A stretch of 64,000 nt of DNA from Clostridium sp. 1001271st1 H5 (GTDB lineage Bacteria; Bacillota; Clostridia; Lachnospirales; Lachnospiraceae): assembly GCF_005845215.1 (NCBI RefSeq), contig NZ_SPHO01000001.1:481146-545145 (forward strand). The letters run 5' to 3'. Below are positions 45,281-47,922 of the stretch, one piece after another. Within the stretch, counting starts at the first letter, position 1. Each line of letters opens with the position of its first letter. The position numbers were made by a program, and so were the translations under genes. The notes beneath the pieces are model-generated. The model was not told the DNA's origin and did not search any database. It saw nothing but the letters and a program-made list of their open reading frames with translations.

Positions 45281-45766
45281 ATGCTAAAAGAAGTGGGATA
45301 TCACCGCGAAGCCGTGCTGCAGTATGCAAAGCGGTGGGCAAAGGGGAGGAATCCGCGGTATTTGGATTTCGAACATATGGGAGGGGACTGCACCAATTTT
45401 GCGTCCCAGTGTATTTATGCCGGAAGCGGCGTTATGAACTATACCCCGACCATGGGGTGGTATTACAGCAGCGGTTCCAACCGGAGTCCCAGCTGGACCG
45501 GGGTCGGGTATCTTTACAATTTCCTCACAGGAAATAAATCAGTGGGCCCCTATGGGGCGGAGACCGGTAAAGGAGGCGTGGAGCCGGGTGACATTGTGCA
45601 GCTGGGCAATAAGAACGGATATTACCACAGCCCTGTGATTGTTGACGTGGCCGGGGATGAGATTCTGGTTGCAGCCCACAGTTACGATGCATACATGCGG
45701 CCTCTGGATTCTTATATTTATGAAAAGGTCCGCTTTCTACATATACAGGGTGTACGCAATTGGTAA
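45281..45766 (+). CDS. Amidase_6-like protein
   Basis: 161 aa matching the putative amidase domain family (PF12671): YHREAVLQYAKRWAKGRNPR, then GGDCTNFASQCIYAGSG with the likely catalytic Cys, and YYHSPVIVDV with the His. It lacks a signal peptide or membrane segment, unlike many wall-associated relatives. AGGA lies 8 nt before ATG 45281. The cell-wall amidase role is inferred from family. Confidence 0.82.
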   Translation: MLKEVGYHREAVLQYAKRWAKGRNPRYLDFEHMGGDCTNFASQCIYAGSGVMNYTPTMGWYYSSGSNRSPSWTGVGYLYNFLTGNKSVGPYGAETGKGGVEPGDIVQLGNKNGYYHSPVIVDVAGDEILVAAHSYDAYMRPLDSYIYEKVRFLHIQGVRNW

Positions 45767-45819: not shown

Positions 45820-45834
45820 TAATAATGATTATTG
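45820..45834. promoter_or_regulatory. Fur/PerR-like 7-1-7 box over the transcription start
   Basis: TAATAAT-G-ATTATTG keeps 11 of 14 positions of the Fur (TGATAAT-N-ATTATCA) or PerR (TTATAAT-N-ATTATAA) consensus. It overlaps the predicted start of a gene encoding peroxide-scavenging rubrerythrin. The AT-rich setting weakens the match. Confidence 0.45.
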
Positions 45835-45873
45835 TTATCGATAAACTATGCTTTATTACTTCAGGAGGTTCAA

Positions 45874-47922
45874 ATGAATCATTTACCAATGAATGTGCGC
45901 GTACCCATTGAGAAAGACAATCCGTCCATATGCAGGGACGAAAGCCTTTGTATTAAATGCGGCCAGTGCAGGGATATCTGTACGGACTATATAGGAGTCC
46001 ACAAAACCTACAGGCTGGAGCAGACAGGAGGCCGGGCAGTCTGTATCAACTGCGGCCAGTGCGCCAATGTCTGTCCCGTGTCCAGCATTACGGAAACATA
46101 TGAGTACCAGGATGTAAAGGCAGCGGTTTCCGACCCGGAGAAGATTGTGATTTTCAGCACCTCTCCCTCTGTAAGGGTTGCACTGGGAGAAGAATTTGAC
46201 ATGGAGGACGGAAGCTTTGTCCAGGGAAAGATGGTGGCGCTTCTCAGGAGGCTGGGAGCCTCCTATGTGCTTGATACCAATTTCGCAGCGGATTTGACCA
46301 TTGTGGAGGAGGCCAGCGAGCTGATTGAGCGGATAACAAAGAAAAACAGGCCTCTGCCCCAGTTTACAAGCTGCTGCCCGTCCTGGGTTAAGTATGTGGA
46401 GACCTACTATCCGGACATGACGCCCCACCTGTCCACTGCCAAAAGTCCCATTGGAATGCAGGGACCTACCATTAAAACATATTTTGCCAAAAAGATGGGC
46501 ATTGACCCCGCCAGTATCGTGAATGTGGCCGTCACTCCCTGCGCTGCCAAGAAATTTGAAATCCGGCGGGAAGAAATGAATGCAGCTGCCAGGTATCTGG
46601 GCATTGAAGGCATGCGGGACATGGACTATGTAATTACCACCAGAGAACTGGCAAAGTGGGCAAAGGAGGAAAACATTGATTTTGCCGCACTGGAGGATTC
46701 TTCCTTTGACCGTCTGATGGGCGAGGCCAGCGGGGCCGGGGTTATCTTCGGCAATACAGGGGGTGTCATGGAGGCGGCACTGCGCACCGCCTATGCATAC
46801 ATCACCGGGGAGAAAGCGCCCTCATCCCTTTTCCGGCTGGAACCGGTGCGGGGAATGGAGGATGTGAAAGAGGCGCAGCTGACCATAAACGGACTGGTAC
46901 TAAACATAGCGGTCATCTACGGCACTAAGGCAGCCTCAAAGTTCCTGGACAGGATGAAGGAGGGGGACAAAGAATATCATTTCATCGAAGTGATGACCTG
47001 TCCCGGAGGATGCATCGGAGGAGGCGGACAGCCAAAGGGTACCTTGTTAAAGGGCGATGAGCTGCGCAGGAAACGGATTGAGGGCCTTTACCGGAAGGAT
47101 GGGGAGATGGAGCTCCGCACAAGCCATGAAAACCGGGAAATCATAGAACTCTATAAAGAATTTTACCAGAAACCATTAAGCAGTCTGGCGGAACAGATGC
47201 TGCACACCGCATATAGAGACAGAAGTGAGGATTTAGGAGGAAAGAATATGAACAGTTCAGTAAAATACCGCTGTACAATCTGCGGATATATTCACGAAGG
47301 AGAGCTTCCGGAAGGATTTACCTGCCCCGTATGCCGTCAGCCGGCTTCCGTATTTGAGAAGCTGGAGGAAAAGGCAGAGAATCCGGGCAGCAGATATGCA
47401 GGCACAAAGACAGAGAAAAACCTGATGGAAGGATTTGCAGGGGAAAGCCAGGCCAGAAACAAGTATACATATTTTGCAATGGTTGCCCAGAGGGAAGGAT
47501 ATGACCAGCTGGCGGAAATCTTCTTAAAGACAGCCAGAAATGAGCAGGAGCATGCAAGGCTCTGGTTCGAGGCACTGGGACATATGGGCACCACGGCCCA
47601 GAACCTGCTTGCAGCCGCAGAGGGAGAGAATTACGAATGGACTGACATGTACGACCGCTTTGCAAAGGACGCAGACGAGGAGGGATTTCCTGAGATGGCA
47701 GAGCTTTTCAGGAGAGTGGGAGCCATTGAGAAGTCCCATGAGGAGCGCTACCGCCGGCTGCTTCACAACGTGGAGATGCAGCAGGTCTTTGAGAAAGCGG
47801 AGGAAACCATGTGGGAGTGCCGTATCTGCGGACATCTGGTAATAGGAAAGAAGGCGCCGGAGGTATGTCCGGTATGCAAATACGCCCAGAGCTATTTTGA
47901 ATTGAGAAAAGAGAATTATTGA
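45874..47922 (+). CDS. [FeFe]-hydrogenase fused in frame to rubredoxin-rubrerythrin
   Basis: Continuous 682-aa frame. Residues 1-70 carry two [4Fe-4S] motifs (Cys26/29/32/36 and Cys57/60/63/67). The H-cluster domain has TSCCPSW (Cys167/168), TPCAAKKFE (Cys223; TPC rather than the usual MPC) and [16 protein letters not shown] (Cys376/380), so it looks catalytic. The hydrogenase ends naturally at about 450 (MLHTAYRDR). Residues 459-682 are a rubredoxin-like site (Cys467/470/484/487), a rubrerythrin di-iron domain ([26 protein letters not shown]) and a C-terminal rubredoxin. AGGAGG precedes ATG 45874. An internal start at 47248 could yield rubrerythrin alone. Likely role: hydrogen or electron handling linked to peroxide reduction. 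Confidence 0.9.
47235..47250 (+). promoter_or_regulatory. Internal Shine-Dalgarno and start codon within the fusion gene
   Basis: AGGAGG (47235-47240) lies 7 nt before in-frame ATG 47248. Its own codons encode the LGGKN linker between hydrogenase and rubrerythrin, so the ribosome site is translated when the fusion is made. Confidence 0.8.

Follow-up and report, generated by a model that had tools for sequence, protein, structure and literature searches.

The hydR gene and its junction

The 64,000-nucleotide stretch of Clostridium sp. 1001271st1 H5 analysed here (the window) carries on its forward strand, at 45874..47922 (stop included), a single open frame of 682 codons plus TGA. This gene, hydR, encodes a 682-aa [FeFe] hydrogenase-rubrerythrin fusion according to its translation, its Pfam and NCBIfam domains and its fused relatives. 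A first-pass annotation had described a hydrogenase frame running stop-free into a rubredoxin-rubrerythrin, and the 682 uninterrupted codons bear this out. Pfam places Fe_hyd_lg_C at residues 90-384, Fe_hyd_SSU at 395-450 and Rubrerythrin at 515-630, together with two RUBY_RBDX rubredoxin-like stretches. The hydrogenase part (residues 1-450; 45874..47223, forward strand) comprises two 4Fe-4S (F-cluster) sites readable in the translation, the H-cluster domain and the small-subunit domain. It belongs to group A (TIGR02512, 473.5 bits vs. a cut-off of 405.95), contains the H-cluster motifs L1, L2 and L3 when read against the motifs quoted in excerpts of PMC11926857, and finds its best PDB match in 8a6t_A; HydF scores above its cut-off in the same genome. 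The rubrerythrin part, read from an in-frame ATG as the nested frame rbr (47248..47922, forward strand), would give a 224-aa rubredoxin-rubrerythrin-rubredoxin protein. It exceeds the cut-off of NF045767 RuberyRbr (253.5 vs. 200 bits), can be aligned over its diiron domain and C-terminal rubredoxin with two solved structures (9fj2, 1b71), and was compared with 41 free homologues. No further close copy of the module was found in the genome, other matches being 34-60% identical over parts. Judged by sequence, a diiron domain and two rubredoxin centres share one chain with the hydrogenase.

The hydrogenase part closes with LHTAYRDR, and the frame continues through the linker SEDLGGKN (47224..47247, forward strand). 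Within this linker, AGGAGG at 47235..47240 (forward strand) forms a Shine-Dalgarno (SD) motif with a duplex energy of -10.2 kcal/mol, 7 nt before the ATG at 47248-47250, just as the first reading of the sequence had it; the stops reported then for both other frames (TGA 47226, TAG 47234) are likewise present. The main start of hydR is preceded by the same motif, AGGAGG, at 45863..45868 (forward strand). The linker reads as a translated ribosome-binding site, an assignment based on its letters, on the codon and phase tests described below and on the matching intergenic site of a free rbr gene.

Immediately upstream of hydR lies an ORF of 161 aa with a lone Amidase_6 domain (45281-45766). Between the two, the Fur/PerR-like palindrome AATAATGATTATTGTTATC (45821..45839, forward strand) represents a candidate operator, matching 16 of 19 positions of the Fur consensus, a score reached in 0 of 200 shuffles. 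Similar palindromes occur in L009, L149, L011 and L015, and since most distant fused relatives are without one, a PerR operator is only a side point here.

Distribution and origin of the fusion

A full-length fused match occurs in three of 61 surveyed genomes (the own genome, G035 with 89% and G019 with 72% identity; broken pieces in G010 were left out); the other 16 genomes from the window's genus show no such match. The nearest hydrogenases of these congeners are 71-74% identical. Those of G007, G008 and G012 have no fusion partner, and that of G015 precedes a rubredoxin and another kind of rubrerythrin-type domain. Also within the genus, L013:1432-3519 encodes a hydrogenase-rubredoxin followed by a different rubrerythrin-type domain without the C-terminal rubredoxin, and its junction is a long Ala/Ser-rich linker without a start. 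The elongation-factor-like gene adjoining hydR was not found in the ~1.5-kb flanks of the congeners' hydrogenases. At the level of the family, the fusion is found in at least 17 of 397 genomes, the own genome and G462 (L161) included and the ORFs of G583 (675 aa) and G600 (962 aa) left out of the count. Among the matches at E 1e-30 or better from 391 genomes of the class, no fusion other than the own one was seen, and there was no fusion among the loci examined (30 requested) in a sample of 398 genomes of the phylum; neither the class-sample matches listed nor these phylum-sample loci contain a C. perfringens hydR.

The initial statement that hydrogenase-rubrerythrin fusions are known from clostridia is correct for HydR of C. 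perfringens, but too narrow, as the fusion also appears in records titled Spirochaetales and Parasutterella and on a plasmid of Cetobacterium. The record titles of named fused relatives comprise Lachnospiraceae, Oscillospiraceae, Spirochaetales and Parasutterella, and the fusion was moreover found on plasmids of Paraclostridium bifermentans and Cetobacterium somerae (L206, L207, L208). L150, a fused relative from another genome of the same family (G461), is identical over its last 600 residues to L038, whose record is titled Hespellia sp. A horizontal spread of hydR appears likely.

Some of these relatives deserve mention in their own right. The plasmid-borne genes L206 and L207, both in complete circular records, are annotated only as rubrerythrin; if the predicted second product is made, such entries would mean that nested proteins go unseen in automatic annotation. 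L208 has its hydrogenase and small-subunit parts in separate frames, with the rubrerythrin part and the internal start intact. L161 has an in-frame stop, real or erroneous, within its hydrogenase part and keeps the internal start and SD; only the final stretch of the hydrogenase is left in its fused ORF, which is counted among the 28 and 29 fusions considered below.

In the hydrogenase tree, 27 of the 41 members of one supported clade are fused, amid unfused members and others with different tails, and at least eight changes are required (L058, cut by a contig end, is labelled unfused). In the rubrerythrin tree, from which L208, L082 and modules below 170 aa were left out, hydrogenase-fused, other-fused and free modules are interleaved, with at least nine gains or losses of the hydrogenase label. 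The fusion therefore happened, or was undone, many times, and, judging by the changes in the rubrerythrin phylogeny, many of the fusions may be recent enough to allow some relic effect. Among Bacilli, the junction of the fused L052 aligns with those of L066 and L069, in which hydrogenase and rubrerythrin are adjacent separate genes (85% mean column identity; these are metagenome assemblies). A one-base gap in L052 relative to the other two puts the hydrogenase stop out of frame, and the GAAGGAAGG ribosome site becomes linker. Further small indels in the spacer imply that the in-frame join took more than one change, and the exact fusion event is not captured in these loci because the hydrogenase of L052 shares only 48-51% identity with its counterparts in L066 and L069. 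Moreover, L021, a free rubrerythrin gene from the same order as the window, carries TTAGGAGG upstream of its ATG as an ordinary ribosome site between genes. Taken together, the comparisons support the view that the rubrerythrin half was formerly a separate gene, which would have been fused with its own ribosome-binding site. The first-pass annotation had proposed a two-gene operon fused with its second ribosome site kept. Of this proposal, the fusion of the rubrerythrin and the reading of its site as linker stand (L021, Bacilli loci); a single relic of one recent event does not, as the site is kept in 28 fused ORFs and two plasmid genes and partners changed repeatedly.

Conservation of the internal start

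Among 477 internal in-frame ATGs of 46 window ORFs, 19, including that at 47248, have an SD energy of -10.2 kcal/mol or lower, and 60 have one of -8 or lower. Significance of the site in the single sequence was rejected, since these 19 ATGs, itself included, are as strong or stronger; two ATGs inside hydR, at 47107 and 47695, even score a better SD, and 43% of the synonymous recodings of the window linker match the one observed. Across relatives, all 28 distinct fused ORFs (own included; identical sequences were collapsed before counting) have an in-frame start with an SD of -6 or lower at the boundary, 25 of them of -8 or lower and three with weak sites (L050, L046 and L049, -6.5 to -7.3), although the joining stretch varies from 13 to 43 residues. 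By comparison, 44 of 483 other internal ATGs of these ORFs reach -8 (Mann-Whitney p 4e-17, with related rows). The 29 hydrogenase fusions with an N-terminal rubredoxin (the 28 ORFs plus two plasmid genes, minus L052, which is without this rubredoxin) all have an ATG within 12 codons of the first Cys, 26 with strong SDs, and their median SD is -10.2 vs. -10.7 in free rbr genes, where the ATG is present in 39 of 41. When 30 aligned fusions were scanned column by column, the junction Met residues fell into three columns with 29 ATGs, 26 of which have strong SDs; for the next internal Met columns, this holds at 11/21, 7/28, 5/28 and 5/9 ATGs, and only the main start is comparable to the junction columns in SD strength. 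The p-values overstate the effect because the sequences are related. The internal site is thus ordinary in the single sequence, but lies beyond chance by its conservation.

The choice of codons at the site was compared with the same residues elsewhere in the same ORFs. Lys-Gly is written AAAGGA in 14 of 14 cases at the site vs. 15 of 47 elsewhere (Fisher p 3e-6, again with related rows), Leu-Gly-Gly is written TTAGGAGG in 7/7 vs. 0/6, and in ferredoxin-type fusions Lys-Glu is AAGGAG in 8/8 vs. 7/51. The GGAG core is split into codons as GGA-G in 23 of 29 hydrogenase fusions; in 20 of 22 ferredoxin-type and in all four glutamate-synthase-type fusions, it stands at a similar distance but is read G-GAG. 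The same bases thus stand in different codon phases and give different amino acids, and therefore it is the nucleotides rather than the residues that were kept. The actual SD has a mean of -10.4 vs. -8.3 expected from the peptide by synonymous recoding, with only 12 of 28 rows ranking among the top 20% of their recodings, and GAGG persists in the linkers of L155 and L161, where none of the six codons preceding Met specifies Gly or Lys. In predicted mRNA structures, opening the junction ATG costs less energy than opening any other internal ATG in 26 of 30 fused genes (median 3.5 vs. 10.5 kcal/mol), and low predicted structure at the junction is kept even in GC-rich genes, e.g., L044.

Other fusion partners served as natural controls. 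The same rubrerythrin module also stands behind ferredoxin-like, glutamate-synthase-like and flavin-reductase domains (Pfam on examples, the rest sorted by similarity; 19 rubrerythrin ORFs without N-terminal rubredoxin were set aside). All 24 ferredoxin-like fusions have an internal ATG at the rubrerythrin start, 23 of them strong (e.g., L131, L119, L124 and L164); in the ferredoxin-type L107, Met is present with an SD of -7.6. One ferredoxin-like fusion, L072, stems from a record titled Methanomethylophilaceae archaeon. Among the glutamate-synthase-like fusions (L141, L144, L146, L116 and L096), four of five keep the ATG with AAGGAG before it, L096 being the one without internal start. An internal ATG was found in none of the ten flavin-reductase fusions (L081, L085, L087, L094, L137, L138, L139, L145, L173 and L174; the Pfam domain was shown for L173, L139 and L094, the rest assigned by similarity), nor in any of five hydrogenases with other rubredoxin-bearing tails, one of which (L079) has GTG with a very strong SD. 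This frame, L079:3959-6019, joins the hydrogenase to a rubredoxin-helical-rubredoxin protein ("helical" being a guess from the sequence), and AAGGAGG before the in-frame GTG could be another translated ribosome site. A strong SD-like stretch occurs, by chance or otherwise, in 3 of 17 controls without Met (L137, L174 and L079). The median opening energy in the three no-Met groups is 12.1, 14.5 and 9.0 kcal/mol vs. 3.5-4.5 in groups with Met; the no-Met ferredoxin-type group of this comparison (11 rows) consists of the ten flavin-reductase rows and the misassigned L107.

Readings of the internal start and known systems

We consider it probable, with a probability of about 0.7, that hydR yields free rubrerythrin in the cell alongside the fused HydR. 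A second, free product from ATG 47248 had been suggested at the outset, and as a prediction it is probable in light of the conserved SD, the codon bias and the low predicted structure. The internal ribosome site probably still works; its occurrence in all hydrogenase-rubrerythrin ORFs compared and in two other fusion types makes it a conserved feature, more than one recent relic. In the fused enzyme, the hydrogenase half would oxidise H2, and the electrons would reach the diiron site by way of its 4Fe-4S clusters and the rubredoxins and there reduce H2O2, as shown for the C. perfringens relative. With the rubrerythrin gene fused in frame, own ribosome-binding site included, and the internal site under selection, ribosomes would also start at 47248 and give a free 224-aa rubrerythrin. 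Such free subunits could pair with the fused one, setting the subunit ratio in mixed dimers, and could keep peroxide reduction going once the oxygen-sensitive hydrogenase has failed. The fusion, its internal site and the conservation, codon bias and low predicted structure of this site are observed; in vivo initiation, the proportion of the two products and this role of the free form are inferences of ours.

An alternative option is an inert relic, i.e., the rubrerythrin was fused recently and repeatedly, and its ribosome site, with little or no initiation, has not yet been lost. A module that often changed partners (at least nine changes on the rubrerythrin tree and at least eight on the hydrogenase tree), the Bacilli loci, where a small indel is enough to fuse, and the flavin-reductase fusions without a start would all be in line with this; we nevertheless regard it as unlikely. 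L010, L153 and L155 group together with support in both trees and therefore probably share one fusion, but they keep the SD although the linker has changed (26-29 residues to the first Cys), and even the SD letters were replaced with the SD kept (AAAGGAA in L010, AAAGGAA in L153, CGAGGAA in L155). In addition, synonymous codons are chosen in favour of the SD, and weak predicted structure persists even in the GC-rich L044. It is improbable, and clearly more so than a relic, that the SD-like stretch merely slows the ribosome between domains for folding, without initiation: the site does lie at a joint whose two sides each occur as proteins of their own, but it is accompanied by an ATG in 29 of 29 hydrogenase fusions with N-terminal rubredoxin, near the starts of free rubrerythrins, and by low structure over the start, and no ATG is present at the comparable domain boundary of the flavin-reductase fusions.

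We give even less weight to a constraint on the peptide only, in which the protein requires a basic linker with glycine and a final Met, and the SD arises as a side effect. The peptide alone indeed predicts a fair SD (mean -8.3), but the codon choice, the two codon phases of the same nucleotides and the GAGG of L155 and L161, whose linkers have neither Gly nor Lys in the last six codons before Met, speak against it. Finally, one base can make or break such a fusion, which leaves an assembly or sequencing error at the junction of two normal genes to be considered. This is extremely improbable: alignment of the junction in relatives, as the first-pass annotation had advised, gave the same fused frame in 27 other distinct ORFs (the hydrogenase part of L161 being interrupted), the frame is also fused in the plasmid genes of complete circular records (L206, L207), and error at the window junction is unlikely because L009, from another genus and with 89% identity, has the same open junction with the last 18 nt before the ATG identical.

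The two-product reading of hydR may reach beyond this gene. It is somewhat favoured, in our view, that the rubrerythrin fusions represent a general "translated intergenic region" device, in which the module was repeatedly fused behind hydrogenase, dicluster ferredoxin-like and glutamate-synthase-like donors with its own ribosome site, and selection keeps the site working, so that tethered and free peroxidase are made in a set ratio, an arrangement given up in the flavin-reductase fusions. If both proteins are indeed made from hydR, the recently characterised HydR would be a two-product gene at least in these lineages, and studies at the level of the cell or of the purified protein that assume one polypeptide would need a second look. 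The loci would also offer a natural series for the subunit ratio in gene fusions, with separate genes, small-indel fusion, kept internal start and lost internal start.

This kind of fusion enzyme is already known as HydR. CperHydR of C. perfringens is an H2-dependent H2O2 reductase with a strong bias to H2 uptake, and a CpII-like bias is linked to Thr and Ala in the L2 motif, according to excerpts of PMC11926857. The window gene likewise joins HydA and rubrerythrin in a single chain and, like CperHydR, has two 4Fe-4S sites, the H-cluster motifs, two rubredoxin centres and a diiron domain in its sequence; TPC-x-A in the L2 motif is common to both (TPCAAKKFE in the window, TPCTAKKFE in CperHydR). 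From this identical composition we infer the H2-to-peroxide reaction for the window's enzyme, and hydR would accordingly encode an H2-dependent H2O2 reductase. The passages of PMC11926857 on purified CperHydR mention neither a short product nor truncation or cleavage, and no internal start is mentioned in the excerpts of this source. The predicted 224-aa product would resemble the free rubredoxin-rubrerythrin-rubredoxin proteins of Clostridia, in which Met stands 4-5 codons before the first Cys, as against 8 codons in the window, with the same kind of ribosome site; unlike rbr in the window, these are separate genes with an intergenic site.

For an internal start in rubrerythrin no report was found in the open-licence literature, and the nearest known mechanism would be that of the dual-start genes CcmM, CheA, IF2 (infB) and SsaQ, which have in-frame internal starts according to excerpts of PMC11005335. 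As in these, a single gene would yield a long protein plus a shorter version begun at an internal start in the same frame: hydR has an in-frame internal start codon with a ribosome site, and this site is conserved and appears selected, with approximate significance, as the rows are related. Both products are documented for CcmM, CheA, infB and SsaQ, whereas the second product of hydR is predicted. Unlike in these four genes, the internal site of hydR seems to be the former intergenic site of the fused gene.
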